DNA from: Tabrizicola thermarum
GTDB lineage: Bacteria; Pseudomonadota; Alphaproteobacteria; Rhodobacterales; Rhodobacteraceae
Reading direction: 5' to 3'
DNA: 64,000 nucleotides
NCBI RefSeq assembly: GCF_003574395.1
Contig: NZ_KZ984536.1
Span: forward strand, 105,322 to 169,321
Every line of letters starts with the position of its first letter. The first letter of the stretch is position 1. The position numbers and the translations under genes are program-made. The notes beneath the pieces were generated by a model that saw nothing but the letters and a program-made list of their open reading frames with translations, was not told the origin of the DNA and made no database searches. Shown here one piece after another: positions 16,499-53,335 of this stretch.

Positions 16499-18144
16499 CC
16501 CCAGGTTTTCAGGCCCGAACGACGCAGCCTGGCGTGACCGGCGGCTGGATGGCCCTGGCCCTGTTCGCGTTTCTTGCCTTTCTGCCCGCGCTGGCGTCGC
16601 TGCCGGTGACCGACCGGGACGAGGCGCGCTTCGTCCAGGCCAGCCGGCAGATGGTGGAAAGCGGCGACTTCGTGGACATCCGGTTCCAGAACGAACCGCG
16701 CTACAAGAAACCGGTCGGCATCTACTGGCTGCAAAGCGCCGCCGTCCTGGTCTCGGGCGCCGGACCAGAGGCGCCGCTCTGGGTCTATCGCCTGCCCTCG
16801 CTGGCGGGCGCGGTCCTGTCGGTGCTGCTGGTCGCGGTCACAGGGACACCGCTTTTCGGCAGACAGGCCGCGCTTCTGGCCGCAGCCGTCTTTGCCGGCG
16901 GGCTGGTGATCGGCGGCGAGGCCCGGATCGCCAAGACAGACGCGGTCCTTCTGGCAACGATCCTGGCCGCTCAGGCCGTCCTGGCGCGGTTGTACCTGCA
17001 CCGGATCGCCGGGCGCGGCGCGGCCTTCGCCTTCTGGCTTGCCATCGCCGCAGGCGTCCTGGTCAAGGGGCCCATCGGCCCGATGGTTCCGGCGCTCACC
17101 ATCCTGACCCTTGTCGCCATCGAGCGCCGGGCAGACTGGCTGCGCCCGCTCTGGTCGCCCTGGCCGATCCTGCTGGCGCTTGCCGTGACCCTGCCCTGGT
17201 TCGTCGCGATCACCCTGCGCAGCGAGGGCGCCTTCTGGCTGGGCTCGGTGGGGGCGGACCTGCTGCCCAAGATCGCCTCGGGACAAGAGGGCAAGGGCGC
17301 GCCGCCGGGCAGCTATCTTCTGCTGCTGTGGCTGACCTTCTGGCCTGCGACCCCGCTCCTGATCCTCGCGCTGCCCGCGATCTGGCGGTCACGACGGGAC
17401 CCCGCAACGCGGTTCTGCCTCGCCTGGGCCATCCCGGTCTGGCTGGTCTACGAGGCGATCCCGACGAAACTTGTCCACTACACCCTGCCGGCTTTCCCGG
17501 CGCTGGCCCTGCTGGCCGTAGCCCATCTGCCCAAGGGTCTTGCCACCGCGTCGCGGCTGGTCCGCGGGCTGGCCACCCTCGCCATCCTGCCGGGACTGGC
17601 GCTTGGCGGCGCGGTCGTGGCCTTTGCCGCAACCCGGGACGCCTGGCCCGCTGCCGGGCTGGCGCTTGGCGGACTGGCAGGCGCGATGCTGGCCGCAGGC
17701 TTCGCGATACGCTCTGCGCTTGGAGCAAGGCCCTGGGCCCTGGCCGCGCAGGCCGCGCTTGCGGGGGCGGTGCTTCACGCCGGGCTGATCTCGGCCGCCG
17801 CGCGCATCCCGGCCCTCTGGCCCACAGACGCGGCGATCTCCGTCGCAAACGAGCTCGCCGCCGCGCAGGGCTGTGACCGGCCGCTTGTCACCGGCTGGGG
17901 CTACAGCGAGCCGTCGCTCGTCTGGCACGGCGGTCGGGACACCGACCTTCACCCCGCGTCCGCCCCCGCGTCCGAGGCCGTCCGGCCAGGCCCCTGCCGG
18001 GTCGTCATCCATGCCCGCGATGCCGGCTCGGCGGCGCTGCCCCTGATCCGGGGCTGTCACCAGGCGCGCAGCGTCACCGGCTTTGCGCTCGGCGCAGGCC
18101 GCTGGGTCACGCTCGACGTGCTCGACTGTCGGGGCGCACCATGA
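16495..18144 (+). CDS. Second ArnT-like lipid-linked-sugar glycosyltransferase
   Basis: 549 residues if the TTG at 16495 is used; AAAGGGGCG lies 6 nt upstream and the start overlaps the PAP2 stop as TTGA. GTG 16534 and ATG 16549 are alternatives. The catalytic loop reads LPVTDRDEARFVQASRQM and FQNEPRYKKPVGIYWLQSA, the classic ArnT acidic-plus-KPP/KPV pattern. About twelve membrane segments and a periplasmic C-terminal domain with several cysteines follow. Different acceptor or linkage from the first copy is likely, as its loops diverge strongly. Confidence 0.85.
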   Translation: MTPGFQARTTQPGVTGGWMALALFAFLAFLPALASLPVTDRDEARFVQASRQMVESGDFVDIRFQNEPRYKKPVGIYWLQSAAVLVSGAGPEAPLWVYRLPSLAGAVLSVLLVAVTGTPLFGRQAALLAAAVFAGGLVIGGEARIAKTDAVLLATILAAQAVLARLYLHRIAGRGAAFAFWLAIAAGVLVKGPIGPMVPALTILTLVAIERRADWLRPLWSPWPILLALAVTLPWFVAITLRSEGAFWLGSVGADLLPKIASGQEGKGAPPGSYLLLLWLTFWPATPLLILALPAIWRSRRDPATRFCLAWAIPVWLVYEAIPTKLVHYTLPAFPALALLAVAHLPKGLATASRLVRGLATLAILPGLALGGAVVAFAATRDAWPAAGLALGGLAGAMLAAGFAIRSALGARPWALAAQAALAGAVLHAGLISAAARIPALWPTDAAISVANELAAAQGCDRPLVTGWGYSEPSLVWHGGRDTDLHPASAPASEAVRPGPCRVVIHARDAGSAALPLIRGCHQARSVTGFALGAGRWVTLDVLDCRGAP

Positions 18145-19019
18145 AGCACGAGGACTTCCGCGAGACAGCCTTCGCGCCCCGAGACCCTGAAGCCACCGGG
18201 ACCTCCCCCCTTGGCTGGTTCGCGACAGCAGCCCGTCGCCAGGGGCGGCTGTCCTGGCTGGTCACCTTCGCCTGCGCGCTGCTGCTGGTTGCCGTGGTGG
18301 CGGATGGACCTGTGCGGCAACTGGCGCGGTCGCTCGACCCTTCGGTCGTCGCGGTCCTGCGCGCTGTCACCCAGTTCGGAAACTCGGCCTGGCCGGTTGG
18401 CCTGTCGCTGCTGTTTCTGGCCGCCGCGACGATCGTCTCGCGCCGTCCGAACCCCTTCGCGCCCGAGGCGCTGGGAAATCTGCGCTCGGCCCTGATCCTG
18501 GTCATCGGATCGGTGATGATCAGCGGCACGATCGCAAGCCTGACAAAGAACATGATCGGCCGCGCCCGGCCACCGATGGGCCCCGACACCCAGGTGTTCG
18601 AGTTCGCGATGATGTCGTTTCGCGCCAGCTGGGCCTCCTTCCCGTCCGGCCATGCGACCACGGCCACGGCCTGCGCGATTGCCCTGGCGGTGATCTTTCC
18701 GCGGCAAGCCTTTGCCTGGCTGGCCATCGGCCTGACCGCCGCGCTGTCCCGCGCCTTCCTCGGTGTCCACTGGCTGACGGACTGCCTTGCGGGCATCGCG
18801 CTTGGGGCGCTGGTCAGTCTGACCCTGCGACGCTGGATGGAGGCGCGACAGCACAAGTTCCAAGTCGAGCCGGCTTTCGTTCTGCGCGTATCGGTCTTGG
18901 GCTGCATCCTTGCCCTTGGCGCTGGCTACAGGCTGACAAAAGAGGCAGTCAGACGCGCGGGGAGGTTTCTCAGGCGGGCGGCCACGCGCTTCGGGAACGG
19001 ACCTGCCCCAAGGCCGTGA
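18141..19019 (+). CDS. PAP2-superfamily membrane phosphatase, canonical motifs
   Basis: 292 residues with complete PAP2 signatures: KNMIGRARPPMG, SFPSGHATT and SRAFLGVHWLTD. Unlike its paralogue at 15752 it keeps the catalytic His in PSGH. Five or six membrane helices follow a 45-residue cytoplasmic N-terminus; a basic C-terminal tail follows the last helix. Last gene of the six-gene operon, overlapping the ArnT-like gene by 4 bp. Probable lipid A 1- or 4'-phosphatase or undecaprenyl-PP phosphatase. Confidence 0.86.
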   Translation: MKHEDFRETAFAPRDPEATGTSPLGWFATAARRQGRLSWLVTFACALLLVAVVADGPVRQLARSLDPSVVAVLRAVTQFGNSAWPVGLSLLFLAAATIVSRRPNPFAPEALGNLRSALILVIGSVMISGTIASLTKNMIGRARPPMGPDTQVFEFAMMSFRASWASFPSGHATTATACAIALAVIFPRQAFAWLAIGLTAALSRAFLGVHWLTDCLAGIALGALVSLTLRRWMEARQHKFQVEPAFVLRVSVLGCILALGAGYRLTKEAVRRAGRFLRRAATRFGNGPAPRP

Positions 19020-19561
19020 CCGAGACCCCGGGTGCAATACACCGTGGCCGTGGTCGCCAAGAACTCCATCGTGCCGCTTCCGAATGACAGGCTGATCCGC
19101 CCACTCTGCCGCGAGGGAGCTTTTCGGCACCTTCCGCCGCCCGGACACCGTTCCCGCCCACGACCACATGGCCTTGGCCGTGATGGCCGTCCTGACTTCT
19201 CAACTGGGCCCGCGCGTCCCGGAAGATGTCTCGGCCTTGGGCTTCGACCCTACCGGGACGGATCGCCATGACGAAAGCCGCCCTTCAGCGCCTTGCCTGC
19301 GCCGAGGGGGGCCGGGGACCGGCATTGTCCGCGATGGTCCGGCAGATGCCCGGGCAAGGTCTCCGCTTTCCCTTGCCGCGGACGGATGTCCGTCTGTTTG
19401 TGAAACCCCGTGCGCGGCGATGGCGGAGTCAGGCTCCGGCACGGCTGACGAGGTGTCAGGCCGTTGACCAGGTGACTGCGGTCCGGCACCCCCGGATGCC
19501 CGAAGATTGACCATTCGGCCAGGGGACCCAGGCCTTTGCGGAAGAAAATCGACAAGAGGCC
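19020..19561. other. 540-bp intergenic stretch without a convincing gene
   Basis: Open frames here lack ribosome sites, family motifs and sensible composition. A short GC hairpin CGGAC-GGAT-GTCCG lies near 19379-19392. The right part may hold the promoter of the amide operon; otherwise nothing specific is seen. Confidence 0.5.
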
Positions 19562-19589
19562 TTGACCCGCGTCGGGCCACGCATATCGT
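19562..19589 (+). promoter_or_regulatory. Candidate sigma-70 promoter of the amide operon
   Basis: TTGACC, a 16-bp spacer and TATCGT. Transcription would start near 19596 and give a leader of about 90 nt containing the hairpin at 19625-19665. The -10 match is only moderate. Confidence 0.35.
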
Positions 19590-19624
19590 CGGGAGACAAA
19601 TCGACGATCAGTGATGTGGCACTC

Positions 19625-19668
19625 GGGCCTTGCACGCAGACGAATGGACGTCTGCGACAAGGCCCTTT
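19625..19668 (+). terminator. Leader hairpin/attenuator with ANTAR-type hexaloop
   Basis: An 8-bp outer stem GGGCCTTG (19625-19632) / CAAGGCCC (19658-19665), a small internal loop, then a perfect 8-bp inner stem CGCAGACG / CGTCTGCG closing a 6-nt loop AAUGGA, followed by TTT. A hexaloop with A at position 1 and G at position 4 is the recognition element of ANTAR RNA-binding regulators, and an ANTAR protein is encoded two genes downstream. Only one such loop is clear. An upstream 8-bp stem at 19585-19608 (ATCGTCG/CGACGAT) has a longer, non-matching loop and would lie mostly upstream of the proposed start site. Confidence 0.65.
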
Positions 19669-19686
19669 GACGTTTGGGGAACGGGA

Positions 19687-20757
19687 TTGAAACGGCAGAT
19701 CAAGCTGGGGCTCCTTCTGTCGCGCTCGGGCAGCTATTCGCTGATCTCCGAGGCCTGCCGCTCGGGCGCGCTGGCGGCGATTGCGCGGGTCAACGGCGAC
19801 CCGGACCTGGACCTGAGCTTTGTCCCCGTCGAGCGCGATCCCGGCGGCAACATCGACGCCTATGCGCCGCTTTGCGAGGAAATCCTGCGCGATGCCGGGG
19901 CCCGGCACATGGTGGGTTGCGTCACCTCGTGGAGCCGGAAGGAGGTCATCCCGACGGTCGAGAAATACGGTGGCACGCTGTGGTATGCCGTGCCCTATGA
20001 GGGCTTCGAGGCGTCGGACCATGTGGTCTACACCCATGCCTGTCCGAACCAGCACCTTCTGCCGCTGCTTGACTGGGTGATGCCCGCGCACGGGCGCCGG
20101 GCCTATCTGACCGGCTCGAACTATATCTGGGGCTGGGAGATGAACCGTCTGGCCCGCGAGAGGATCACGGCGGCGGGCGGCGAGGTTCTGGGTGAACGCT
20201 ACCTGCCCATCGGATCGCGCGACGTGGGCCGGATGATCGAAGAGGTCCGTTTTGCCCGGCCGGACTTCATCCTGAATTCGCTCATCGGGCCGTCGTCCTA
20301 TGAATTCATGGCTGCCTATCGCGCCCTGGGACTGGAGGATGCCGCCTTCCGGCCTGACCGCTGCCCGGTCCTGTCCTGCAACGTCACCGAATGCGAGCTG
20401 CCTGCGCTCGGTCAGGCCGCCGAGGGGCTGGTGGCGGCGGGACCGTATTTTCGCGGCGCGCCCGGGGCGGGCAATTTCGGGTCGTCGCACGAAGCGGCGG
20501 CGTTTTCGGCGGTGATGGAACTGGCGCGGCTTCTGGCGGGGCGCGAGGGTTCCGAGACCTGGCCGTTGTCGCAGCTTCTGGCCGGTCGGGGCGGGATCGT
20601 GGACCCGGAGACACATCACACCGTCCTTCCGGTGGTCATCGCCCGGGTTGAAGGCGGGGCCTTCAGGACGCTGAAGCGGTGGGAGGCGGTGGCGGGCGAC
20701 CCCTACCTTACCCGCAGCCGGTCGATCCCGACCCCAAGCCTGCGGGTGGTGTCATGA
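19687..20757 (+). CDS. amiC: AmiC-like amide-binding sensor / negative regulator
   Basis: 356 residues from TTG 19687 with GGGGAA upstream; an in-frame TTG at 19630 would start inside the leader hairpin and is less likely. A type I periplasmic-binding fold without signal peptide, as in AmiC, which stays cytoplasmic. Family markers are LGLLLSRSGSYS, VGCVTSWSRKEV, GSNYIWGWEMNRLARE and FILNSLIGPSSYEFMAAYR. In Pseudomonas, AmiC sequesters the antiterminator AmiR until a short-chain amide binds. The overlap with the ANTAR gene (4 bp) and the formamidase downstream support this role. Confidence 0.85.
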   Translation: MKRQIKLGLLLSRSGSYSLISEACRSGALAAIARVNGDPDLDLSFVPVERDPGGNIDAYAPLCEEILRDAGARHMVGCVTSWSRKEVIPTVEKYGGTLWYAVPYEGFEASDHVVYTHACPNQHLLPLLDWVMPAHGRRAYLTGSNYIWGWEMNRLARERITAAGGEVLGERYLPIGSRDVGRMIEEVRFARPDFILNSLIGPSSYEFMAAYRALGLEDAAFRPDRCPVLSCNVTECELPALGQAAEGLVAAGPYFRGAPGAGNFGSSHEAAAFSAVMELARLLAGREGSETWPLSQLLAGRGGIVDPETHHTVLPVVIARVEGGAFRTLKRWEAVAGDPYLTRSRSIPTPSLRVVS

Positions 20758-21356
20758 AGCGCCGCGCGATCCGCATTCCGAACCTCGGCGGGGCGCAGGC
20801 GATCATCCTGCATCGACCGCATCCGACCGTGCAGGCGCTCAGCCGCCAGCTGACGGCCATCGGCCTGCAAGTGGTGCAGACCTGGCCCGAACTGGGGCCC
20901 GAGGCGCTGGCCGCCGACTACATCTTCTTCGACGCCGACATGGGCCATGACGGGATGTTCCCGTGGGAGCCGGGCCAGCCACCGATCCCGATGATCGCGC
21001 TGATCGGCTCCGAGGCTCCGGGCCGGATCGAATGGTCGCTGAAGGTCGGATCTCATGCCCAGCTTCTGAAGCCCGTGGGCGACAGCGGGGCCTATTCGGC
21101 ACTGCTGATCGCGCGGGACGCCTTTGACGCGCAAAAGGCGCTGTCGGCCGAAATCGCCGACCTGCGGCGGCGGCTGGAGGAGCGACAGACCGTGGTCCGC
21201 GCCGTGACACTCCTGGCCGCGCGGGGCAAGTCCGACGCCGAGGCTTATGCGCAACTGCGCCAGATGGCGATGGCCTGGCGGATCAGCTTCGAGGATGCGG
21301 CGGCGCGGATCGTCGCGGCGCAGGGGGGCGCGGATGACCGATCCGAGCGTCGTTGA
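20754..21356 (+). CDS. amiR: AmiR-like ANTAR antitermination regulator
   Basis: 200 residues. The N-terminal 120 form a pseudo-receiver domain without a clear phosphoacceptor (FFDADMGHDG), as in AmiR. A coiled coil (SAEIADLRRRLEERQTVV) leads to a C-terminal ANTAR RNA-binding three-helix bundle: AVTLLAARGKSDAEAYAQLR, then QMAMAWRISFEDAAARIV. It should bind hexaloop hairpins in nascent mRNA and prevent termination, with the site at 19625-19668 the obvious target. Overlaps amiC by 4 bp and the permease gene by 23 bp. Confidence 0.87.
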   Translation: MKRRAIRIPNLGGAQAIILHRPHPTVQALSRQLTAIGLQVVQTWPELGPEALAADYIFFDADMGHDGMFPWEPGQPPIPMIALIGSEAPGRIEWSLKVGSHAQLLKPVGDSGAYSALLIARDAFDAQKALSAEIADLRRRLEERQTVVRAVTLLAARGKSDAEAYAQLRQMAMAWRISFEDAAARIVAAQGGADDRSERR

Positions 21357-22215
21357 CGTCCCTCCACAGGGCGCGCTGGCCCGGCTTCTGCGGCGGAAGC
21401 TGGCGCTGTTCGGGCTGGCGATCATTGTCCTGGTGGTGGCCGGCGCGGTCTTTGCCCCCTGGATCGCACCTTTCGACCCGAACGACCAGATGTTCGACGG
21501 GCTGACCCTGGAAGGCGCGCCGATGCCGCCGGACGGGAAATTCCTGATGGGGACCGACCTTCTGGGCCGCGACCTTCTCAGCCGGCTCCTCTATGGCGCG
21601 CAGACCTCGCTGGTCATCGGGGTCGTGGCGAATGGCCTTGCGCTGGTGATCGGCACGCTGGTCGGCATCACCGCCGGCTTCTTCCGGGGCTGGATCGGAG
21701 GTGTGCTGATGCGCTTCACCGATCTGATGATGGCCTTCCCTGCCCTTCTCCTCGCCATCTGCCTCGCCGCGATCTTCCAGCCCTCGCTCTGGATCGTCGC
21801 CATGGTCATCGCGCTGGTGAACTGGGTGCAGACGGCGCGGGTGATCTATACCGAGACCTCGTCTCTGGCCACGCGCGACTTCATCGCGGCGGAACGCACG
21901 CTGGGCGCAAGCACCCCCCGCATCCTTTTCCGCCACATCCTGCCGCACCTTCTGCCCACGATCATCGTCTGGGGCACGCTGGGGATTTCCACGACGGTCC
22001 TTCTGGAGGCGACGCTCAGCTTCCTCGGCATCGGGGTCCAGCCGCCCACGCCAAGCTGGGGCAACATCATCTTCGAGAACCAGACCTACTTCCAGACCGC
22101 GCCCTGGCTGGTCTTCATCCCCGGCGCTGCGATCATCCTTCTGGCACTGGCCTTCAACCTGGTCGGCGACGCGTTGCGCGACGTGCTGGACCCGACACAA
22201 AGGGGGCGCGACTGA
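21334..22215 (+). CDS. Dipeptide/oligopeptide-type ABC permease (DppC-like)
   Basis: 293 residues from ATG 21334. A DppC/OppC permease with the N-terminal signature APFDPNDQ and GTDLLGRDLLSRLLYGAQTS, six membrane helices and the EAA loop AAERTLGASTPRILFRHILP. The C-terminus WLVFIPGAAIILLALAFNLVGDALRDVLDP is standard. Its start lies within the amiR 3' end. With the DppB-like partner it forms the channel for an amide or peptide-like substrate. Confidence 0.9.
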   Translation: MTDPSVVDVPPQGALARLLRRKLALFGLAIIVLVVAGAVFAPWIAPFDPNDQMFDGLTLEGAPMPPDGKFLMGTDLLGRDLLSRLLYGAQTSLVIGVVANGLALVIGTLVGITAGFFRGWIGGVLMRFTDLMMAFPALLLAICLAAIFQPSLWIVAMVIALVNWVQTARVIYTETSSLATRDFIAAERTLGASTPRILFRHILPHLLPTIIVWGTLGISTTVLLEATLSFLGIGVQPPTPSWGNIIFENQTYFQTAPWLVFIPGAAIILLALAFNLVGDALRDVLDPTQRGRD

Positions 22216-23135
22216 TGGCCGCCTATCTGATCCGCCGACTGATCCAGTCCGCGCTGATCCTCCTTGGCGTCAGCTTCATCACCTTCTTCCTTCTGTTCGT
22301 CCTGCCCGCCGACCCGGTGCGCCAGATCGCCGGACGCTCCGCCACCGCCGAGACGGTGGAGAACATCCGCCAGCAGCTTGGCCTCGATAAGCCGTTCATC
22401 GTGCAATACGGCCGCTACCTGGGCGCGCTGCTGCAAGGCGACATGGGGCGCAGCTACCTCCAGAAGACCGAGGTCGCAGACCTGATCCTGTCGCGCCTGC
22501 CGGCCACGCTGCTGCTGATGCTGGGGGCTATCGCCTGCGAACTGGTCCTGGGCCTGACGATGGGGATCATCGCCGCACTGTGGCGCGGAAGGGCGCTGGA
22601 CCAGACGCTGATGGTGACTTCCTTCGTCACCGTCTCGGCCCCGCAATTCGTGGTCAGCCTGCTTCTCCTTTACGTCTTCGCGGTGAAGCTGGGCTGGTTC
22701 CCGATCGGCGGCTACGGGACCTTTGCCCATCTCGTCCTCCCGGCCGTCACCTTGGGCATTCTCGGCTCCGGCTGGTATTCCCGCATGATGCGGTCCTCGA
22801 TGATCGACGTCTTGCGCGCCGACTATATCCGCACCGCCCGCGCCAAGGGCCTGACCCGCGCGCGGATCGTGCTGCGCCATGCCCTGCCCAACGCCATCCT
22901 GCCCGTCATCGCGATGATCGGCATCGACATCGGCATCTTCATGGGCGGGATCGTCGTGGTGGAATCCGTCTTCGGCTGGCCCGGCATCGGGCAACTGGCC
23001 TGGCAGGCCATCCAGCGCGTGGACATCCCGATCATCATGGGCGTCACGCTGGTCTCGGCCTTTGCCATCGTGCTGGGCAACCTGCTGGCCGACCTCATCG
23101 CCCCCCTCATCGACCCCCGGATCCGTCTTCGCTAA
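22215..23135 (+). CDS. Dipeptide/oligopeptide-type ABC permease (DppB-like)
   Basis: 306 residues, overlapping the DppC-like gene by one base (TGATG). Six membrane segments, VLPADPVRQIAG and QQLGLDKPFIVQYGRYL near the N-terminus, and the EAA loop RTARAKGLTRARIVLRHALP. The C-terminus ends LLADLIAPLIDPRIRLR. The order DppC before DppB is unusual but seen in other operons. Followed after 18 bp, with AGGAGAG, by the binding-protein gene. Confidence 0.9.
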   Translation: MAAYLIRRLIQSALILLGVSFITFFLLFVLPADPVRQIAGRSATAETVENIRQQLGLDKPFIVQYGRYLGALLQGDMGRSYLQKTEVADLILSRLPATLLLMLGAIACELVLGLTMGIIAALWRGRALDQTLMVTSFVTVSAPQFVVSLLLLYVFAVKLGWFPIGGYGTFAHLVLPAVTLGILGSGWYSRMMRSSMIDVLRADYIRTARAKGLTRARIVLRHALPNAILPVIAMIGIDIGIFMGGIVVVESVFGWPGIGQLAWQAIQRVDIPIIMGVTLVSAFAIVLGNLLADLIAPLIDPRIRLR

Positions 23136-23153
23136 CCCAACAGGAGAGAAAGA

Positions 23154-24767
23154 ATGAAAAGACTGCTCGCCTCTACCGCCGTCATGCTGGCCCTGGCCCT
23201 GCCTGCCCTGGCACAGGACTACACACCCGACCCCGCCGCGAAACCCGGCGGGTCGATCACCGTCACCTACAAGGATGACGTGGCGACGCTGGACCCGGCC
23301 ATCGGCTACGACTGGCAGAACTGGTCGATGATCAAATCGCTGTTCGACGGGCTGATGGATTATGTCCCGGGCACCACGACGCTGCGCCCGGGCCTTGCGG
23401 AAAGCTACGAGATTTCCGAGGACGGGCTGACCTACACCTTCAAGCTGCGCGCAGGGGTCAAGTTCCACAACGGGCGCGAGATGACGGCCGAGGACGTGAA
23501 ATACTCGCTGGACCGGGTGACCAACCCCGAGACGCAGTCGCCGGGCGCGGGCTTCTTCAGCGCCATCGCCGGGTTCGAAAACGCCGGGCCGGGGGGCCTT
23601 TCGGGGGTCGAGGTCGTGGACCCGCTGACGGTGAAGATCACCCTGTCCCGCCCCGATGCGACCTTCCTGCATGTCATGGCGCTGAACTTCGCCTCTGTCG
23701 TCCCGAAAGAGGCTGTGGACGAGGCCGGGGCCGATTTCGGCAAGAAGCCGGTGGGAACCGGGGCCTTCAAGCTGGCGGAATGGACGCTGGGCCAGCGGCT
23801 GGTGTTCGAGAAGAACGCCGACTACTGGCGTCCGGGCGTGCCGTTCCTCGATTCGGTCGTGTTCGAGGTCGGGCAAGAGCCGGTCGTCGCCCTTCTGCGC
23901 CTGCAAAACGGCGAGGTGGACGTCCCCGGCGACGGCATCCCGCCCGCCAAGTTCACCGAGGTGATGGGCGACCCGGCCCAGGCCGCGCGGGTGGTCGTCG
24001 GCGGGCAGCTGCACACCGGCTACATCACGCTGAACGTCACGATCCCGCCCTTCGACAAGCTCGAGGTCCGCAAGGCGGTGAACATGGCGATCAACAAGGA
24101 CCGGATCGTCCAGATCATCAACGGCCGCGCGGTTCCGGCAACCCAGCCGCTGCCGCCCTCGATGCCGGGCTATACCGAAGGCTATGCGGGCTATCCCTAC
24201 GACCCCGAGGGGGCAAAGGCGCTCTTGGCCGAGGCGGGGCTGGCCGACGGTTTCGAGACCGAGCTTTACGTGATGAACACCGACCCGAACCCGCGCATCG
24301 CGCAAGCGATCCAGCAGGACCTCGCGGCCATCGGGATCAAGGCGAACATCCAGAACCTCGCCCAGGCCAACGTGATCGAGGCCGGGGGTGCTGGCACCGC
24401 GCCGATGATCTGGTCGGGCGGCATGGCATGGATCGCCGACTTCCCCGATCCGTCGAACTTCTACGGCCCGATCCTCGGCTGCGCCGGCGCGGTCGACGGC
24501 GGCTGGAACTGGTCCAAGTTCTGCGACCCGGTGCTGGATGCCAAGGCCGCCGAGGCCGACAGCATGGCTGACCCGGCCAAGGCCGAGGAGCGGCTGAAGC
24601 TCTGGTCCGACGTCTACATGGGCGTGATGGAACAGGCCCCCTGGGTCCCGGTCTTCAACGAGGAGCGCTACACGATGAAGTCGGAACGCATGGGCGGCGA
24701 GGATGCGCTTTACGTCGATCCGGTCTCGATCCCGGTCAACTACGATTACGTCTGGGTCAAAGAGTAA
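23154..24767 (+). CDS. Periplasmic substrate-binding protein, family 5 (DppA/OppA-like)
   Basis: 537 residues. A signal peptide (MKRLLASTAVMLALALPALAQ) is followed by an SBP_bac_5 fold: DPAIGYDWQNWSMIKSLFDG, AGVKFHNGREMTAEDVKYSLDR and a PVGTGAFKL segment. It captures the transported substrate. Given AmiC/AmiR upstream and formamidase downstream, the ligand is more likely an amide-bearing compound or small peptide amide than an ordinary dipeptide; this is inference. Good ribosome site AGGAGAGAAAGA. Confidence 0.88.
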   Translation: MKRLLASTAVMLALALPALAQDYTPDPAAKPGGSITVTYKDDVATLDPAIGYDWQNWSMIKSLFDGLMDYVPGTTTLRPGLAESYEISEDGLTYTFKLRAGVKFHNGREMTAEDVKYSLDRVTNPETQSPGAGFFSAIAGFENAGPGGLSGVEVVDPLTVKITLSRPDATFLHVMALNFASVVPKEAVDEAGADFGKKPVGTGAFKLAEWTLGQRLVFEKNADYWRPGVPFLDSVVFEVGQEPVVALLRLQNGEVDVPGDGIPPAKFTEVMGDPAQAARVVVGGQLHTGYITLNVTIPPFDKLEVRKAVNMAINKDRIVQIINGRAVPATQPLPPSMPGYTEGYAGYPYDPEGAKALLAEAGLADGFETELYVMNTDPNPRIAQAIQQDLAAIGIKANIQNLAQANVIEAGGAGTAPMIWSGGMAWIADFPDPSNFYGPILGCAGAVDGGWNWSKFCDPVLDAKAAEADSMADPAKAEERLKLWSDVYMGVMEQAPWVPVFNEERYTMKSERMGGEDALYVDPVSIPVNYDYVWVKE

Positions 24768-25727
24768 ATGTGCAAGGCCTGCGACTACACGATCCACGGC
24801 GCGCAGCATCATTTCGGCTGGGACAACTCGCTCCCGCCCGCGCTGCGCGTCGCACCGGGCTCGACCATCGAGTTCCACTGTCATGATTCCTCGGCGGGCC
24901 AGCTTGGCCCGTCGTCCACCCTGCAAAGCGTCATCGACCTCGACTTCGGCAAGATCAACCCGGTGTCGGGGCCGATCTGGGTGGACGGGGCGAAACCCGG
25001 CGACGTGCTGAAGGTGACGCTGGAGGGTTTCGCCCCGAAGGTGTTCGACGGCAAGGGCTTCGGCTGGACGGCGAACATTCCGGGCTTCGGCCTTCTGGCC
25101 GACCAGTTCACCGACCCTGCGCTGTGCCTGTGGTCCTACGACCCGGTCAGCATGGAACCGGCGATGTGGGGCAAGTCCGCCCGCGTGCCCTTGAAGCCCT
25201 TCTCCGGCACCATCGGCAATGCTCTCGCTGAACCCGGCCTCCACTCCGTCGTCCCGCCCCGGCGCGTCGGCGGCAACCTCGACATCCGCGACCTGACGGC
25301 GGGCGTCACGCTGTATCTGCCGGTCGAGGTGGAGGGCGCGCTCTTCAGCGTCGGCGACACCCATGCCGCCCAAGGCGACGGCGAGGTCTGCGGGACGGCG
25401 ATCGAAAGTCCGATGAACGTGGTCCTCACGCTGGACCTGGTGAAGGACCAGCCGCTGAAAACCCCGCGCTTCACCACTCCCGGGCCGGTGACGCGGCACC
25501 TGGACGCCAAGGGCTATGAGGCGACGACGGGCATCGGGCCGGACCTGATGACAGCGGCCCGGGACGCGGTGTCGGGGATGATCGACCTTCTCACGAGGCA
25601 GCAGGGCATCTCGGCGGTGGACGCCTACATGCTCTGCTCGGTCTGCGGCGACCTGAGGATTTCGGAAATCGTGGACATGCCGAACTGGGTCGTCAGCTTC
25701 TACTTCCCCCGGGTCGTCTTCGAATGA
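24768..25727 (+). CDS. Acetamidase/formamidase family hydrolase
   Basis: 319 residues, starting directly after the SBP stop. Acetamidase/formamidase (FmdA) family features: APGSTIEFHCHDSSAGQLG, GPIWVDGAKPGDVL, SVGDTHAAQGDGEVCGTAIE and CSVCGDLRISEIVDMPNW. The conserved acidic and His residues at the metal-binding active site are present. It hydrolyses short amides to ammonia and acid in the cytoplasm. Embedded between the binding protein and ATPase of an ABC transporter, it presumably acts on what the transporter brings in and provides nitrogen. Confidence 0.88.
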   Translation: MCKACDYTIHGAQHHFGWDNSLPPALRVAPGSTIEFHCHDSSAGQLGPSSTLQSVIDLDFGKINPVSGPIWVDGAKPGDVLKVTLEGFAPKVFDGKGFGWTANIPGFGLLADQFTDPALCLWSYDPVSMEPAMWGKSARVPLKPFSGTIGNALAEPGLHSVVPPRRVGGNLDIRDLTAGVTLYLPVEVEGALFSVGDTHAAQGDGEVCGTAIESPMNVVLTLDLVKDQPLKTPRFTTPGPVTRHLDAKGYEATTGIGPDLMTAARDAVSGMIDLLTRQQGISAVDAYMLCSVCGDLRISEIVDMPNWVVSFYFPRVVFE

Positions 25728-27505
25728 CCCTTGCGGAAGCCTTGCCAGCGTCCGGGGCGGCCCCCGCCCCGGAGACCGTCCTGCGGGTCGAGGGGCTGTG
25801 CGTCTCGGCCCGGACGGAACAGGGGCTGAAACCCCTGGTTCAGGATCTGTCTTTCGATTTGCGCAAGGGCGAGACCCTGGCCATCGCCGGGGAAAGCGGC
25901 TCGGGCAAGTCGATCACGTCGCTTGCCATCATGGGCCTGCTGCCGCAACCCGCCGTCCGCGTGACCGGGGGCAGCATCCGGTTCGGTCAGCAGGACCTGA
26001 CCGCGCTCTCCGAATCCGCCCTGCGGCAGGTCCGGGGCGACCGGATCGCGATGATCTTCCAGGAGCCGATGACCTCTCTCAACCCGGTCATGACCGTTGG
26101 CGCGCAACTCTCGGAAGCAATCCGCGCGCACGCGCCCGTCGGCCGGACCGAAGCCCGCCGTCGCGCCATCGAAGCCCTTCGCGCCGTCCGCCTGTCGGAA
26201 CCCGAACGGCGGATGGGCCAGTATCCGCACGAACTGTCCGGCGGCATGCGCCAGCGGGTGATGATCGCCATGGCCCTTGCCTTGCGACCCGAAGTTCTGA
26301 TCGCCGACGAACCCACCACGGCACTGGATGTGACCGTGCAGCGCGAGGTGCTGGACCTTCTGCGGGATTTGCAGGCGCGGCTCGGCACCGCGATCATCCT
26401 CATCACGCATGACATGGGCGTGGTCGCCGAAATGGCCAACCGAGTCATCGTCATGCAGCAGGGCCGCCAGGTGGAAACCGCGTCGACCGAAGACATCTTC
26501 GGTCGCCCGCAGGCGGCCTATACCCAGGCCCTGCTCGCGGCTGTCCCGCGTCTGGGTCAGGGCTCTGCGCGCGCGCCTGTCACCGGCGAGCCGATTGCCC
26601 GGCTGTCCGACGTCGTGGTCCGCTATCCGCTGCGCGGCGGTCTGCTTGGCAGGATCACCCACAACGTCCACGCTGTCGATCATGTCAGCTTCGACATCCG
26701 CAAGGGCGAGACCTTCGCGCTGGTGGGCGAATCCGGCTGCGGCAAGTCCACCATCGCCAAGGCCCTCGTCGGCCTGGCCCCGCACCAGGGCCGGATCGAG
26801 ATCGGCGGGCAGGCGATGCAAGGGCTGGACCCCGCGGGCATGAAGGCGATGCGCCGCCGCGTGCAGATGGTGTTCCAGGACCCGATGGCGGCCTTGAACC
26901 CGCGGATGAAGGTGGGCGAGCTGATTGCCGAGCCGCTGGTGATCCACGACATCGGCGATGCCGCCAGCCAGCGCGCCCGCGCCGCCGACCTGATGGCCCG
27001 CGTGGGGTTGGAAGCCAGCCATCTTGACCGCTATCCTCATGAATTTTCCGGCGGCCAGCGCCAGCGCATCTGCATCGCGCGCGCGTTGGCCCTGCAACCC
27101 GACCTCATCATCGCCGACGAAAGCGTCTCGGCGCTGGATGTCTCGGTCCAGGCGCGGGTGCTTGACCTGCTTCGGGCGCTCCAGTCCGAATTCGGCATGT
27201 CTTATCTGTTCATCAGCCATGACATGGCGGTCGTCGACAACATCTCGGACCGGGTCGCGGTGATGTTTCTGGGACAGATCGTCGAGATGGGAACCCGCGC
27301 GCAGATCTTCGGCAATCCCCAGCACCCCTATACCCGCCGCCTGATCGAAGCGGTTCCGATACCCGACCCAAGGCTGAAACGCCTGTCCCGTCCGCGCGAC
27401 GCTTCCGAAGTCCCCAGCCCCGTGCATCGCCCCGGCCATGAGCCGGCGCGGGTCATCCTGCGGGACATCGGTGACGGCCACCTGGTAGGCACATCGGTCG
27501 GATAG
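25724..27505 (+). CDS. Fused dual ABC ATPase (DppD-DppF type)
   Basis: 593 residues with two complete nucleotide-binding domains. Domain 1 (about 18-270) has Walker A GESGSGKS, signature LSGGMRQRVMIAMAL and Walker B EVLIADEPTTALDVTV. Domain 2 (about 290-580) has GESGCGKS, FSGGQRQRICIARAL and DLIIADESVSALDVSV, where Ser replaces the usual Pro after the Walker B Glu. It ends with oligopeptide-transporter C-terminal motifs such as GNPQHPYTRRLIEAVP. Energises the DppBC-like permease. Last gene of the amide operon, overlapping the amidase by 4 bp. Confidence 0.9.
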   Translation: MTLAEALPASGAAPAPETVLRVEGLCVSARTEQGLKPLVQDLSFDLRKGETLAIAGESGSGKSITSLAIMGLLPQPAVRVTGGSIRFGQQDLTALSESALRQVRGDRIAMIFQEPMTSLNPVMTVGAQLSEAIRAHAPVGRTEARRRAIEALRAVRLSEPERRMGQYPHELSGGMRQRVMIAMALALRPEVLIADEPTTALDVTVQREVLDLLRDLQARLGTAIILITHDMGVVAEMANRVIVMQQGRQVETASTEDIFGRPQAAYTQALLAAVPRLGQGSARAPVTGEPIARLSDVVVRYPLRGGLLGRITHNVHAVDHVSFDIRKGETFALVGESGCGKSTIAKALVGLAPHQGRIEIGGQAMQGLDPAGMKAMRRRVQMVFQDPMAALNPRMKVGELIAEPLVIHDIGDAASQRARAADLMARVGLEASHLDRYPHEFSGGQRQRICIARALALQPDLIIADESVSALDVSVQARVLDLLRALQSEFGMSYLFISHDMAVVDNISDRVAVMFLGQIVEMGTRAQIFGNPQHPYTRRLIEAVPIPDPRLKRLSRPRDASEVPSPVHRPGHEPARVILRDIGDGHLVGTSVG

Positions 27506-27703
27506 GACCGGCAGGCGCGGAAACTCCCGGCGTTGTCGGGATCGCGGCGTCGATTGACACAAGTCATTCGAAACCGGCTATGCTTCGCTATCCTTCACCA
27601 AACCGCACAAGACGCAAAAGGCCATGCCGCAGGACCAGCATCGGACAGTGCCCGGACCGACCAACGCCGAATCGCATCATCGGGATGCGGGCCGGGCGTC
27701 GTG

Positions 27704-29419
27704 ATGCCGGGTCTCGCCCCTTTTGCCGAAGTGGCCCTGCTTCTGGTCATGGCCGCAGGGATCGGGCTGATCGGCACACTGGCGCGCCAGCCGCTGATCG
27801 TCAGCTTCATCGCCGTGGGCCTGATCGCTGGGCCGTCGGCCCTGGATGTCGTGCGGTCGGACGCGCAGATCGAGCTTCTGTCCGAGCTTGGCATAGCGGT
27901 GCTGCTGTTCCTTGTCGGCATCAAGCTGGACGTCAAGCTGATCCGGTCGCTGGGTGTCGTCTCGGTGCTCACCGGGCTTGGGCAGGTCCTCTTCACCGCC
28001 TTCTTCGGTTATCTGATCGGCCTCGCCCTTGGGCTGGGTCACATCACCAGCCTCTATGTCGCGGTCGCGCTGACGTTTTCCTCGACCATCATCATCGTCA
28101 AGTTACTGTCCGACAAGCGCGAGATCGACGCGCTGCATGGCCAGATCGCGCTGGGGTTCCTGATCGTCCAGGACCTCGTGGTGGTGCTGGCGATGATCGT
28201 GCTGTCGGCCATCGGCATCGGCGCGGCCGAGGATGGGCATGGCGGGGGGTCGGTGGCCACCGTTCTGGCCTCGGGGCTGGCGCTGGTCGCCGCGGTGGTC
28301 GTGTTCGTGCGCTATGTCGCCAATCCGCTGACCGAACGGCTGGCCCGTACGCCCGAGCTTCTGGTGATCTTCGCCATCGCGCTGGCCGCCATGTTCGCCG
28401 CCTTTGGCGACCACGTCGGCCTTGGCAAGGAAGTCGGCGGTCTGATGGCAGGCGTCGCGCTCGCCTCGACGCCCTACCGCGAGACCATCGCCGCCCGGCT
28501 CGCGCCCTTGCGGGACTTCCTGCTCCTGTTCTTCTTCATCGCCCTCGGGGCCACGCTGGACCTGTCGCTTCTGGGCATGCATGTCGCCGGGGCGATCCTG
28601 TTCTCGCTTTTCGTGCTGATCGGCAACCCTTTGATCGTGCTCGCGATCATGGGCGCCATGGGCTACCGCAAGCGCACCGGATTCCTCGCCGGGCTGACGG
28701 TGGCGCAGATCAGCGAATTCTCCCTGATCTTCGTCGCGATGGGCGTCTCGCTGGGCCATGTGACCGAGGACGCGCTTGGCCTTGTCACCATGGTCGGCCT
28801 CGTGACCATCGCCGCATCGACCTACATGATTACCTATTCGCACCAGCTTTATGCGCTGTTCGAGCCCGTGCTTGGCATCTTCGAACGCAAATCCACCCCG
28901 CGCGAGCCGTCCGAGGCCGGGGCCCATGCGGCCGAACGTTATAAGGTCATCCTCTTCGGTCTGGGCCGGTTCGGCACCGCCATCGGGCTCAGGCTGCACA
29001 AGCGCGGCATCCGGGTGCTGGGCGTCGACTTCAACCCGCAGGCGGTGCGGCGCTGGCGGTCCCTCGGGCTCGACGCCGATTTCGGTGACGCCAGCGATCC
29101 CGAATTCGTCGCCGAACTGCCGTTTCAGGGGGCCGAGTGGATGGTCTCGACCGTACCGATCCACCTCACCGGCCTCAGCCACGAAGACACCCGCCGGACC
29201 CTGATCCAGCTCGCGCGCTCGGCCGGGTTCTCGGGCCGGATCGCGGCAGCCTCGCACAACACCAGCGACAGCGCGGCCCTGTCCGATATCGGCGTCGATC
29301 TGGTGCTGGAGCCGTTCCAGGACGCTGCCGACCGGGCCGTGGAACTGCTCTGCGGCGCCGCAACCGAGGACCGGACGGACTTCCCCGAAATCGCCTCCGA
29401 GGGCCGGGAGACGGTGTGA
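27704..29419 (+). CDS. Cation:proton antiporter of the Kef/YbaL (CPA2) family
   Basis: 571 residues from ATG 27704 (GTG 27701 also possible). The N-terminal 400 residues form a CPA2 exchanger with about 12 membrane segments, GIAVLLFLVGIKLD and LTFSSTIIIVKLLSDK; a GLGKEVGGLMAGVAL segment is conserved. The C-terminal 150 residues are a Rossmann-like domain (VILFGLGRFGTAIGLRLHKR), resembling RCK/KTN domains that bind NAD(H). It probably exchanges K+ or Na+ for H+ at the inner membrane. Single gene, convergent with the aminotransferase. Confidence 0.87.
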   Translation: MPGLAPFAEVALLLVMAAGIGLIGTLARQPLIVSFIAVGLIAGPSALDVVRSDAQIELLSELGIAVLLFLVGIKLDVKLIRSLGVVSVLTGLGQVLFTAFFGYLIGLALGLGHITSLYVAVALTFSSTIIIVKLLSDKREIDALHGQIALGFLIVQDLVVVLAMIVLSAIGIGAAEDGHGGGSVATVLASGLALVAAVVVFVRYVANPLTERLARTPELLVIFAIALAAMFAAFGDHVGLGKEVGGLMAGVALASTPYRETIAARLAPLRDFLLLFFFIALGATLDLSLLGMHVAGAILFSLFVLIGNPLIVLAIMGAMGYRKRTGFLAGLTVAQISEFSLIFVAMGVSLGHVTEDALGLVTMVGLVTIAASTYMITYSHQLYALFEPVLGIFERKSTPREPSEAGAHAAERYKVILFGLGRFGTAIGLRLHKRGIRVLGVDFNPQAVRRWRSLGLDADFGDASDPEFVAELPFQGAEWMVSTVPIHLTGLSHEDTRRTLIQLARSAGFSGRIAAASHNTSDSAALSDIGVDLVLEPFQDAADRAVELLCGAATEDRTDFPEIASEGRETV

Positions 29420-29515
29420 CGGCAGGACGGTCCGGCCACCTGCCCGAGATGCGACGCCCTCCCGGTCCGCGGCACCACCGAACGTCGGTCCGCCAGTCGA
29501 CGGCGGGTGCCCGCC

Positions 29516-30910
29516 TCAGGCCTCTACCCAGAGCCCTTCGTCCTTCACGATCCTGTAAGCCTCGTCCAGCGACTTCCGCGCGCGTTCGATCAGCACGTCG
29601 ATCTCCTCTGGCTTGATCACCAGCGGAGGGGCAATGATCATCCGGTCGCCGACGTGCCGCATGATGAGGTTGTTGGCAAAGCACCGCTCGCGGGTCTTGA
29701 ACCCGACGGTCCCGGCCTCGCTGGCGAATTTCGCCCGCTTGGCCTTGTTCGGGGTCAGCGCGATGGACCCCATCAACCCGACCAGCTTCGCCTCGCCGAC
29801 CATCGGGTGATCGGTCAACGCTTCCCAGCGTTCCTTCAGATAGGGATGCGCCACGTCGCGGACATGCTCGACGATCCGCTCGTCCTGCATGATCCGCAGG
29901 TTCTCCAACGCCACCGCCGCCGCCACCGGATGGCCCGAATAGGTGTAGCCGTGGAAGAACTCGCCGCCGCCGCCGACCACCTCGGCCACTTCGTCGCAGA
30001 CGATGCTGCCCCCGATCGGCTGATACCCCGACGACAGCCCCTTGGCGATGGTCATGATATGCGGCTTGATCCCGAAGGTCTCGGACCCGAACCAGTTCCC
30101 GGTGCGGCCAAAGCCGGTGATGACCTCGTCGGCGATCAGCAGGATCCCGTACTTGTCGCAGATGCGCTGAATTTCCGGCCAGTAGGTTTTCGGCGGAATG
30201 ATGACCCCGCCCGCGCCCTGGACGGGCTCGCCGATGAAGGCGGCCACGTTGTCCGGCCCCAGTTGCAGGATCTTCTCCTCCAGCTGCCGTGCGCGGGCAA
30301 GGCCGAACTCGTCCTCGGACATGTCCCCGCCCTCACCCCACCAGTAGGGCTGGTCGATATGCTCGATCCCGTCGATCTTGCCGCCATGGGCATGGATCGG
30401 CTTCATGCCCCCCAACGAGCCGCCACCCATCGTGGAGCCGTGATAGCCGTTCCACCGCGCGATGATCGTCTTGCGCCAGGGCATCCCCTTCACGTCCCAG
30501 TACCGGCGCACCAGACGGATATTGGTATCATTCGCCTCCGAGCCCGAGCCGGCAAAGAACACGTGGTTCAGATCACCGGGGGCCAGCTTCGCGATCTCCG
30601 CCGCCAGGGCGATCGCCGGCACATGCGTCGTCTGGAAGAAGGTGTTGTAGTAGGCCAACTCCTCCATCTGCCGCGCCGCGACCTGAGCCAGCTCCTTGCG
30701 GCCGTAGCCGATGTTGACGCACCACAGCCCCGCCATCCCGTCGATGATCCGGTTGCCTTCGCTGTCGGTCAGCCAGACGCCCTCGCCCCGGGTGATGACC
30801 CGCGCGCCCTTGGCCGCCAGCCCCGCCTTGTCGGTGAAGGGATGGAAATGGTGCGCGGCGTCCAGACGCTGCAACTCGGCCGTGGGCATGTGATTGGTGA
30901 TCATGTTCAT
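29516..30910 (-). CDS. Class III PLP aminotransferase (omega-amino acid/putrescine-pyruvate type)
   Basis: 464 residues from ATG 30910 with GAGGA 8 nt upstream. PLP-lysine is K290 (MTIAKGLSSGYQPIG); D261 lies in LIADEVITGFGRTG; the phosphate loop is GSGSEANDTN at 121-130. The pattern AHHFHPFTD near residues 19-27 matches putrescine- or beta-alanine-pyruvate aminotransferases. Catabolic role for diamines or omega-amino acids, substrate unproven. Regulated, by inference, by the GntR protein encoded upstream: TGATCA palindromes lie 54-95 bp before its start. Confidence 0.88.
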   Translation of the reverse strand: MNMITNHMPTAELQRLDAAHHFHPFTDKAGLAAKGARVITRGEGVWLTDSEGNRIIDGMAGLWCVNIGYGRKELAQVAARQMEELAYYNTFFQTTHVPAIALAAEIAKLAPGDLNHVFFAGSGSEANDTNIRLVRRYWDVKGMPWRKTIIARWNGYHGSTMGGGSLGGMKPIHAHGGKIDGIEHIDQPYWWGEGGDMSEDEFGLARARQLEEKILQLGPDNVAAFIGEPVQGAGGVIIPPKTYWPEIQRICDKYGILLIADEVITGFGRTGNWFGSETFGIKPHIMTIAKGLSSGYQPIGGSIVCDEVAEVVGGGGEFFHGYTYSGHPVAAAVALENLRIMQDERIVEHVRDVAHPYLKERWEALTDHPMVGEAKLVGLMGSIALTPNKAKRAKFASEAGTVGFKTRERCFANNLIMRHVGDRMIIAPPLVIKPEEIDVLIERARKSLDEAYRIVKDEGLWVEA

Positions 30911-30963
30911 CGGGGAATCCTCGCGGAAGCGGCAGGACCGGATGCCCCGCCTTTGCCGCAGGA

Positions 30964-31004
30964 TATGATCAAACAAGGCGGCGTTCAAGAAATTTGATCA
31001 AATT
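30964..31004. promoter_or_regulatory. GntR-type operator pair upstream of the aminotransferase
   Basis: A perfect 14-bp palindrome AATTTGATCAAATT (30991-31004) and a weaker TATGATCAAA (30964-30973), centres 29 bp apart. TTGATCAA recurs upstream of the GntR gene itself (31852-31859). FCD-type GntR regulators commonly bind short palindromes of this kind. Confidence 0.65.
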
Positions 31005-52867: not shown

Positions 52868-52896
52868 TTGCACCCTCCGCGCCCACCCCCTATATT
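52868..52896 (+). promoter_or_regulatory. Sigma-70 promoter of ssrA
   Basis: TTGCAC, a 17-bp spacer and TATATT. Transcription would begin near 52903, at the 5' end of the tmRNA acceptor piece. Confidence 0.72.
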
Positions 52897-52902
52897 GATC
52901 GC

Positions 52903-53220
52903 TGTCGGGGGCGACCCCGACTATGGCGATAAACGCACCTGTAATAATCGGCTCGGACCCGGGGGCGGTACCCGGCGGCTCCACCAGACCTTCCCGTTCG
53001 TTGCGGGCGTGTGGGGCCGAAATAGGATCGACGAACGACCAAAGAGGCCAGCTTTCGCTCGGTGAGGTACCACCGTTATCGGTCCATGATCACAGTTGCC
53101 AACGACAACCGTGCTCCGGTGGCGCTGGCCGCGTAAGCGGCTCGCAATACCAAATCTAAGTCCTTGCGCTTAGCCGCGTAAGGCGGGGTCCGCAGGCACC
53201 TGGCAACAGAAGCCTGCACC
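52903..53220 (+). ncRNA. ssrA: Two-piece (permuted) transfer-messenger RNA
   Basis: Gene order is permuted as in alphaproteobacteria. The acceptor piece comes first: T-arm-like GGACCCGGGGGCGGTACCCG, then acceptor 3' half CGGCTCC with an encoded CCA ending at 52986. The coding piece begins GGGGCCGA at 53013 and pairs with CGGCTCC to rebuild the acceptor stem. The tag frame 53098-53136 encodes ANDNRAPVALAA then TAA, the rhodobacteral degradation tag. A hairpin GCAGGC/GCCTGC at 53192-53217 marks the 3' end. It rescues stalled ribosomes and tags products for ClpXP. Exact mature ends, after removal of 52987-53012, are estimates. Confidence 0.93.
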
Positions 53221-53335
53221 TTCCCCCACGGCTCCTCGTTCGACTTCGCCCCCGCGCCGCCCGTCACCCGGCATGGCGGTACGACATCAACGACGGGCGG
53301 CTTGCCAGCGACCCGCCCCGGCCCCATCCTGCCCC

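Follow-up and report, generated by a model that had tools for sequence, protein, structure and literature searches.

A conserved hairpin with a single hexaloop overlaps the leader terminator of an AmiC/AmiR-linked Dpp-type amide operon and suggests a variant of ANTAR control

How might an ANTAR protein govern an operon whose leader offers one conserved hexaloop instead of two? The question is raised by a 64,000-nucleotide (nt) stretch of Tabrizicola thermarum (contig NZ_KZ984536.1, positions 105,322 to 169,321; hereafter the window), in which a short leader precedes seven genes in the order amiC-amiR-dppC-dppB-dppA-fmdA-dppDF (19687-27505). The initial annotation had named an amide sensor, AmiC, and an ANTAR protein, AmiR, as the first two genes, and Pfam-type domain matches confirmed both; a protein with AmiR_N and ANTAR domains adjoins an AmiC-type sensor, as in other AmiC/AmiR pairs, and amiR is the sole ANTAR gene detected in its own genome (one match). 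The known dual-hexaloop antiterminators (eutP/EutV, nasF/NasR, and amiE/AmiR), as described in Ramesh 2012 (PMC3369931) and Walshe 2022 (PMC8934654), share with this leader an ANTAR regulator, a hexaloop with A at position 1 (A1), and a C:G closing pair. In both, the 3' arm of the hairpin is part of an intrinsic terminator. Here, in contrast, a single hexaloop is conserved, its position 4 is not G (G4) in 111/112 leaders, and in 15/112 no more than about 12 nt separate the hairpin from the predicted start of the transcript.

The conserved hexaloop belongs to a hairpin, named P2 after the second of the two canonical hairpins (P1 and P2), which reads GGC[ACUCGG]GCC in the window and ends 13 nt 5' of an AAUGGA loop. 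The analysis covered 199 leaders scanned with a stricter module, of which 112 of the dpp type and 22 others were kept and 35 lacking the module, 8 of them dpp-like, were excluded; repeated leaders were counted once. GGC-N6-GCC was present in 101/101 distinct leaders of a first set, its 3' GCC falling in each case within the 5' half of a stem that resembles a terminator and has T's after it; all of them show the short-stemmed hexaloop of the ANTAR motif in overlap with a terminator. The first loop base was A in every one of the 101, though the pattern left this position free, and GGCAN5GCC was expected in 2.2 of 101 Markov-shuffled leaders (maximum, 8). In an alignment of 53 leaders, the GGC/GCC stem and A1 were invariant and the remaining loop bases varied. 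Beyond the leaders, 3.22 megabases of scanned strands held 20 A-loop modules, including the leader of locus L068 itself, which the exclusion had failed to mask, and a module preceding a different gene of an AmiR locus, L112.

The other loop positions behave differently. Position 4 was G in 1/112 dpp-type leaders, against 11/22 of the other AmiR leaders, and C, A, or T in the remaining 111. Position 5 was a purine in 112/112, yet it faces U in most terminators, and for this reason we do not claim it as a replacement for G4. Base 6 was G, C, T, and A in 33, 33, 34, and 12 of the 112, respectively (these counts hold another pick for L068, whose loop, read by hand, is ATCTGG). Across 134 leaders, its pairs with the terminator partner were U-A (33), G-C (19), A-U (18), C-G (17), C-U (24), G-U (19), and others (4), a variety of pairing that speaks well for base 6 being part of the terminator too. 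The two structures overlap and are mutually exclusive. In the window (19602-19640), P2 could be extended to nine pairs, with UGU and GUG below GGC, before the 3' arm of the terminator is transcribed; no comparable extension was noticed in several relatives that were read.

The terminator is formed by two stacked stems. An 8-base-pair (bp) stem (19635-19642/19649-19656) closes the AAUGGA loop, and beneath it lies a second 8-bp stem (19625-19632/19658-19665), with UUU next. This arrangement, proposed in the initial annotation, was borne out by a fold of -30.2 kcal/mol (z, -6.36 against 200 shuffles). The lower stem was 94.3% paired over 53 relatives, with 36 double-change cells compared with 13.8 in shuffles. 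The stacked stem-loop looks like a terminator.

These features lead us to propose, as the probable mode of control, that amide-bound AmiC frees AmiR and that AmiR holds the single P2 hairpin and blocks termination. By default, the transcript would end some 70 nt downstream of its predicted start, leaving the operon off. Amide binding to AmiC would release AmiR, which would grip P2 as it leaves the RNA polymerase, both steps being modeled on relatives. Because the 3' arm of P2 is the 5' arm of the terminator, holding P2 would prevent the terminator, and the whole operon would be transcribed, amiC and amiR included. The hairpin, the terminator, their overlap and conservation, and the absence of a second conserved canonical hexaloop come from sequence comparison; AmiC-AmiR release, binding of P2 by AmiR, and antitermination are carried over from relatives. 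The earlier proposal of an ANTAR attenuator under AmiC/AmiR control before a Dpp-type amide operon is supported in this form.

The proposed kinship of P2 with canonical ANTAR sites draws on nine related loci in which a second AmiC-like protein is encoded behind amiR and the same P2 stands at the same place. We call them urt type after L118, the one among the nine in which the Urt genes were checked and which encodes a UrtA-type protein and Urt-type ATPases; the L117 locus stops before any further genes could be seen. Their P2 had both A1 and G4 in 4/9 leaders, compared with 1/112 of the dpp type, and an upstream A1/G4 hexaloop (stem of at least 3) was found in 6/9, compared with 0.9 expected. 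Since urt-type leaders carry P2 with A1/G4 together with upstream hexaloops, the dpp-type P2 is, on this comparison, most simply a relative of the canonical P2. On the protein side, the window AmiR retains R142, Y164, R168, M172, and R175 among the RNA-contact residues of EutV named in PMC8934654 and carries the substitutions K143Q, K147R, K149V, E160D, N173A, and R177S.

Several observations weigh against the proposed mechanism. G4 is the base missing from 111/112 leaders, and the EutV literature reports that G4 stacks on an ANTAR tyrosine (PMC8934654) and that EutV-dependent induction falls when A1 or G4 of either loop is changed or P1 is deleted (PMC3369931). Position 149 of AmiR is V in 112/115 dpp-like proteins and also in 8/9 urt-type ones. 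We considered whether losing K149 accounts for the absence of G4 and rejected the idea, since V149 is common to AmiRs with G4 leaders: four of the eight V149 urt-type AmiRs have G4 in the leader P2. The P2 stem is invariant within the dpp group and hence shows no covariation there, and AGC/GCU variants occur only in distant leaders (L124 and L141-L143). The main pattern fixes GGC/GCC and therefore the C:G closing pair; when a scan left the closing pair free, for loops starting with A or G only, GGC/GCC was the best A-loop hairpin in 36/38 dpp-like rows, some of them from one genome. The U tract of the window is short, and a strict terminator scan listed none here. Finally, 8/149 dpp-like loci with a leader lack the stricter module; one of these leaders is cut, and the others show the module under other settings or repeat such genomes.

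Studies of other ANTAR leaders bear on whether one hairpin could do. In selection experiments, NasR prefers loops with A1 and G4 closed by a C:G pair, and it binds P2 on its own at about 12 uM (PMC7496416). In the Paracoccus nasA leader, mutating one of the two hairpins hurts activity strongly and mutating the other does so little (PMC5424462). In this leader and in the single hexaloops discussed in PMC8934654, one hairpin may likewise suffice for binding or carry most of the effect; the latter lie outside transcription attenuation or add to a dual motif, unlike the case here.

The most serious alternative is that AmiR needs two hairpins, P2 and a short upstream one (P1') whose loop is recognized under relaxed rules. 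The space upstream of P2 is delimited by a predicted promoter whose TTGACC is invariant in a 14-sequence alignment and from which the transcript is predicted to start near 19596; promoter scores exceeded the shuffled mean in 108/112 leaders. A hairpin of at least 4 bp fits between predicted start and P2 in 81/112 leaders, and upstream 30-mers folded better than their own shuffle mean in 72/92. The loops of these hairpins, on the other hand, span 3 to 8 nt and have no common sequence seen by eye, and the same rule finds no P1' in 31/112 leaders: 16, the window among them, have room and no 4-bp hairpin, and 15 have no room, their predicted promoters ending 13 to 18 nt 5' of P2 and leaving about 6 to 12 nt of transcript before it. 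The three classes require 10 changes on an AmiR tree of 90 of the 112 rows (every fourth Mesorhizobium row was taken, and three far-promoter leaders were set to a distance of 29), in which two starred clades, one of 6 rows and one of 7, leave no space for P1'; these classes rest on predicted promoters and could shift. The count of A1/G4 hexaloops (stem of at least 3) within 90 nt 5' of P2 is independent of promoters: 4/112 dpp-type leaders, compared with 12.5 expected, and none of the 15 close-promoter leaders had one, so that the dpp type lacks a conserved second canonical loop such as the dual motif has. We consider a required P1' unlikely. The wider claim, that this AmiR lineage antiterminates through a single hexaloop without G4, in some members within about 12 nt of the 5' end, is a tentative one, which we hold a little short of evenly balanced.

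A second alternative is that an unknown regulator recognizes GGC-N6-GCC as an operator in DNA, with the terminator acting as a simple attenuator. In its favor, the sequence is a palindrome and the predicted start of transcription is near. We judge this very unlikely nonetheless: base 1 is fixed as A and its mirror base 6 takes all four letters, which is unexpected for a palindrome, the P2-terminator overlap is constant, and homologous leaders bear canonical ANTAR hexaloops.

The weakest alternative, that AmiR binds the AAUGGA loop at the terminator apex, has next to no chance, even though the loop is a hexaloop with A1 and G4 and all 8 bp of its stem are paired, as the apex reads AAUAGA in the sister species (L003) and differs in the 12 further relatives of the 14-sequence alignment, A1/G4 hexaloops (stem of at least 4) between predicted start site and amiC occur in 3/112 leaders compared with 4.3 expected from Markov shuffles, and AmiR bound there would be expected to stabilize the terminator rather than block its formation. 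The initial annotation had called AAUGGA the ANTAR recognition loop and had named lack of A1/G4 conservation in related species as grounds for giving the idea up, and such conservation is indeed lacking. We rejected AAUGGA as the ANTAR site; with its apex unconserved and such hexaloops at no more than the expected frequency, it is best taken, from these comparisons, as a chance A1/G4 match. The count of only one clear hexaloop holds, the hairpin in question being P2. An Rfam search over 17000-30000 gave four matches, every one far under its gathering score.

If AmiR acts on P2, its regulon appears to be small. A search model made of P2 and the terminator found one clear site in the genome of the window, the amiC leader (E value, 3.9e-7). 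No clear second target was found there: the next match (E value, 0.32) was given a look at its sequence only, and four weaker ones (E values, 1.1 to 3.95) were left unread. Over 149 genomes of the order, 13 had a match, 12 of them in an amiC leader; the model missed at least two AmiR-bearing genomes (G242 and G967). The match in L226 was discarded as a false positive, a terminator behind a gene that reads like adenosylhomocysteinase. AmiR thus probably controls only its own operon, in a positive loop. In L112, a hairpin GGC[AATGGG]GCC (2236-2247) with A1, G4, and an overlapping terminator stands before another gene of the amiC-amiR-fmdA locus, where it may give the local AmiR a further site of action.

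The operon is stable among relatives. In the best 80 of 104 relative loci, all seven genes were found in one order in 73, and the other 7 stop at a contig end. AmiR relatives (E value, 1e-8) occur in 51/295 genomes of the family, and the operon was also found in Mesorhizobium. The AmiR of the Rhodobacter calidifons locus (L032) is 99% identical to that of the window. In L030, a locus of 3.5 kilobases, fmdA follows amiC-amiR and no dpp match was found, which suggests a rearranged or reduced version of the operon.

What amide would the operon serve? An importer with a binding protein of the SBP_bac_5 family shares the operon with an FmdA_AmdA amidase, and the binding protein is orthologous to PDB entry 8upi, which shares 76.6% identity with the sister-species copy in L032 and 98.3 to 98.8% with the dppA products of the six Mesorhizobium loci nearest to it. 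The 8upi protein is MeAmi_SBP, which a study of this binding protein (Biochemistry, 2024) reportedly showed to bind L-amino-acid amides and to belong to a large group of FmdA-linked importers; the binding protein found here is of that family, and the operon is of that type. The amidase scored below the NF045496 formamidase equivalog cutoff (126 compared with 500 bits), and DppA scored below the NF043070 dipeptide-binding one (226 compared with 1,005 bits). By analogy, the operon appears to import and hydrolyze amino-acid amides. The initial annotation had described a complete Dpp-type importer with an inserted amidase; all the parts are there, with DppD and DppF as one protein of 593 residues rather than two.

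AmiC, whose nearest solved relative is the 1pea AmiC (138 bits), has a modified pocket, judged at the positions assigned to it in the AmiC literature. S85, Y104, and Y150 are kept in 111, 111, and 112 of 112 dpp-type proteins; position 83 is V, I, T, or L, position 106 is mostly V or C, position 152 is W in 112/112, and P107 is found in 110/112. The nine urt-type AmiCs have Y83 and H107. Pocket and transporter type vary together, since the dpp pattern is also seen in L113-L115, three dpp operons whose AmiRs are distant. The alterations would fit a sensor for larger amides. As in Pseudomonas aeruginosa AmiC/AmiR, the amide sensor and the ANTAR protein are adjacent and S85, Y104, and Y150 are kept; the differences are the Dpp-type importer, an FmdA-type amidase in place of AmiE, and the altered Y83, T106, and Y152.

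The features of the operon are collected in Table 1; the amiC start is most likely the TTG at 19687. On its 3' side lie a TrkA_N-containing Na/H exchanger (27533-29419) and, beyond it on the minus strand, a class-III aminotransferase (29516-30988), opposite which a 496-residue open frame matched no Pfam family. Elsewhere in the window there is a transfer-messenger RNA gene (52894-53227) with the tag ANDNRAPVALAA.

Table 1. Features of the leader and operon (window coordinates)
Feature	Position	Strand	Basis
Predicted sigma-70-type promoter, TTGACC-16-TATCGT	19562-19589	+	1 found; mean of 0.0 in shuffles
P2, candidate AmiR-binding antiterminator hairpin, GGC[ACUCGG]GCC	19618-19629	+	Conserved pattern
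Putative intrinsic terminator, two stacked 8-bp stems and short U tract	19625-19668	+	Fold, covariation
AAUGGA loop, terminator apex	19643-19648	+	A1/G4, taken as chance
amiC, amide sensor, inferred TTG start	19687-20757	+	Peripla_BP_5, 246 bits
amiR, ANTAR antiterminator	20754-21356	+	ANTAR, 39.9 bits; AmiR_N, 35.3 bits
dppC-type permease, start inferred from sequence	21334-22215	+	
dppB-type permease	22215-23135	+	
dppA-type binding protein, PDB 8upi ortholog	23154-24767	+	916 bits against 8upi
FmdA_AmdA family amidase	24768-25727	+	PF03069, 193 bits
Fused DppD-DppF ATPase, 593 residues	25724-27505	+	Two ABC_tran stretches

The combination of genes is not itself new. We equate the "cluster 5" class of ATP-binding cassette (ABC) transporters with the SBP_bac_5/Dpp type. 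On a plasmid of Klebsiella KOS9, amiE, amiC, and amiR form an operon together with an ABC transporter of "cluster 5" (PMC13209695), which likewise joins AmiC/AmiR, an amidase, and an ABC importer and differs by its AmiE-type amidase. The pairing of AmiC/AmiR with such a transporter, which the initial annotation had found unfamiliar, is thus already known in kind, given this operon and the near identity of 8upi to Mesorhizobium dppA products. Among the titles listed in the open-licence PMC literature, none dealt with ANTAR attenuation by one hexaloop or with AmiR leaders of dpp operons, and the comparisons suggest that an attenuator with one hexaloop and no G4 is a variant of known ANTAR control not previously described.

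The EutV structure paper asks why two hexaloops are required if a dimer holds only one and calls for work on single hexaloops (PMC8934654). More than 100 distinct leaders of the dpp type resemble naturally occurring attenuators with one hexaloop, and relatives with two are found within the same bacterial family, so a comparison of leaders with and without a given P1 could address the question. Any search demanding two A1/G4 loops would overlook the dpp-type leaders. These leaders also point to AmiC with an altered pocket as an amino-acid-amide sensor. If the proposed mechanism is true, neither a recruitment hairpin nor G4 would be generally required for ANTAR control.

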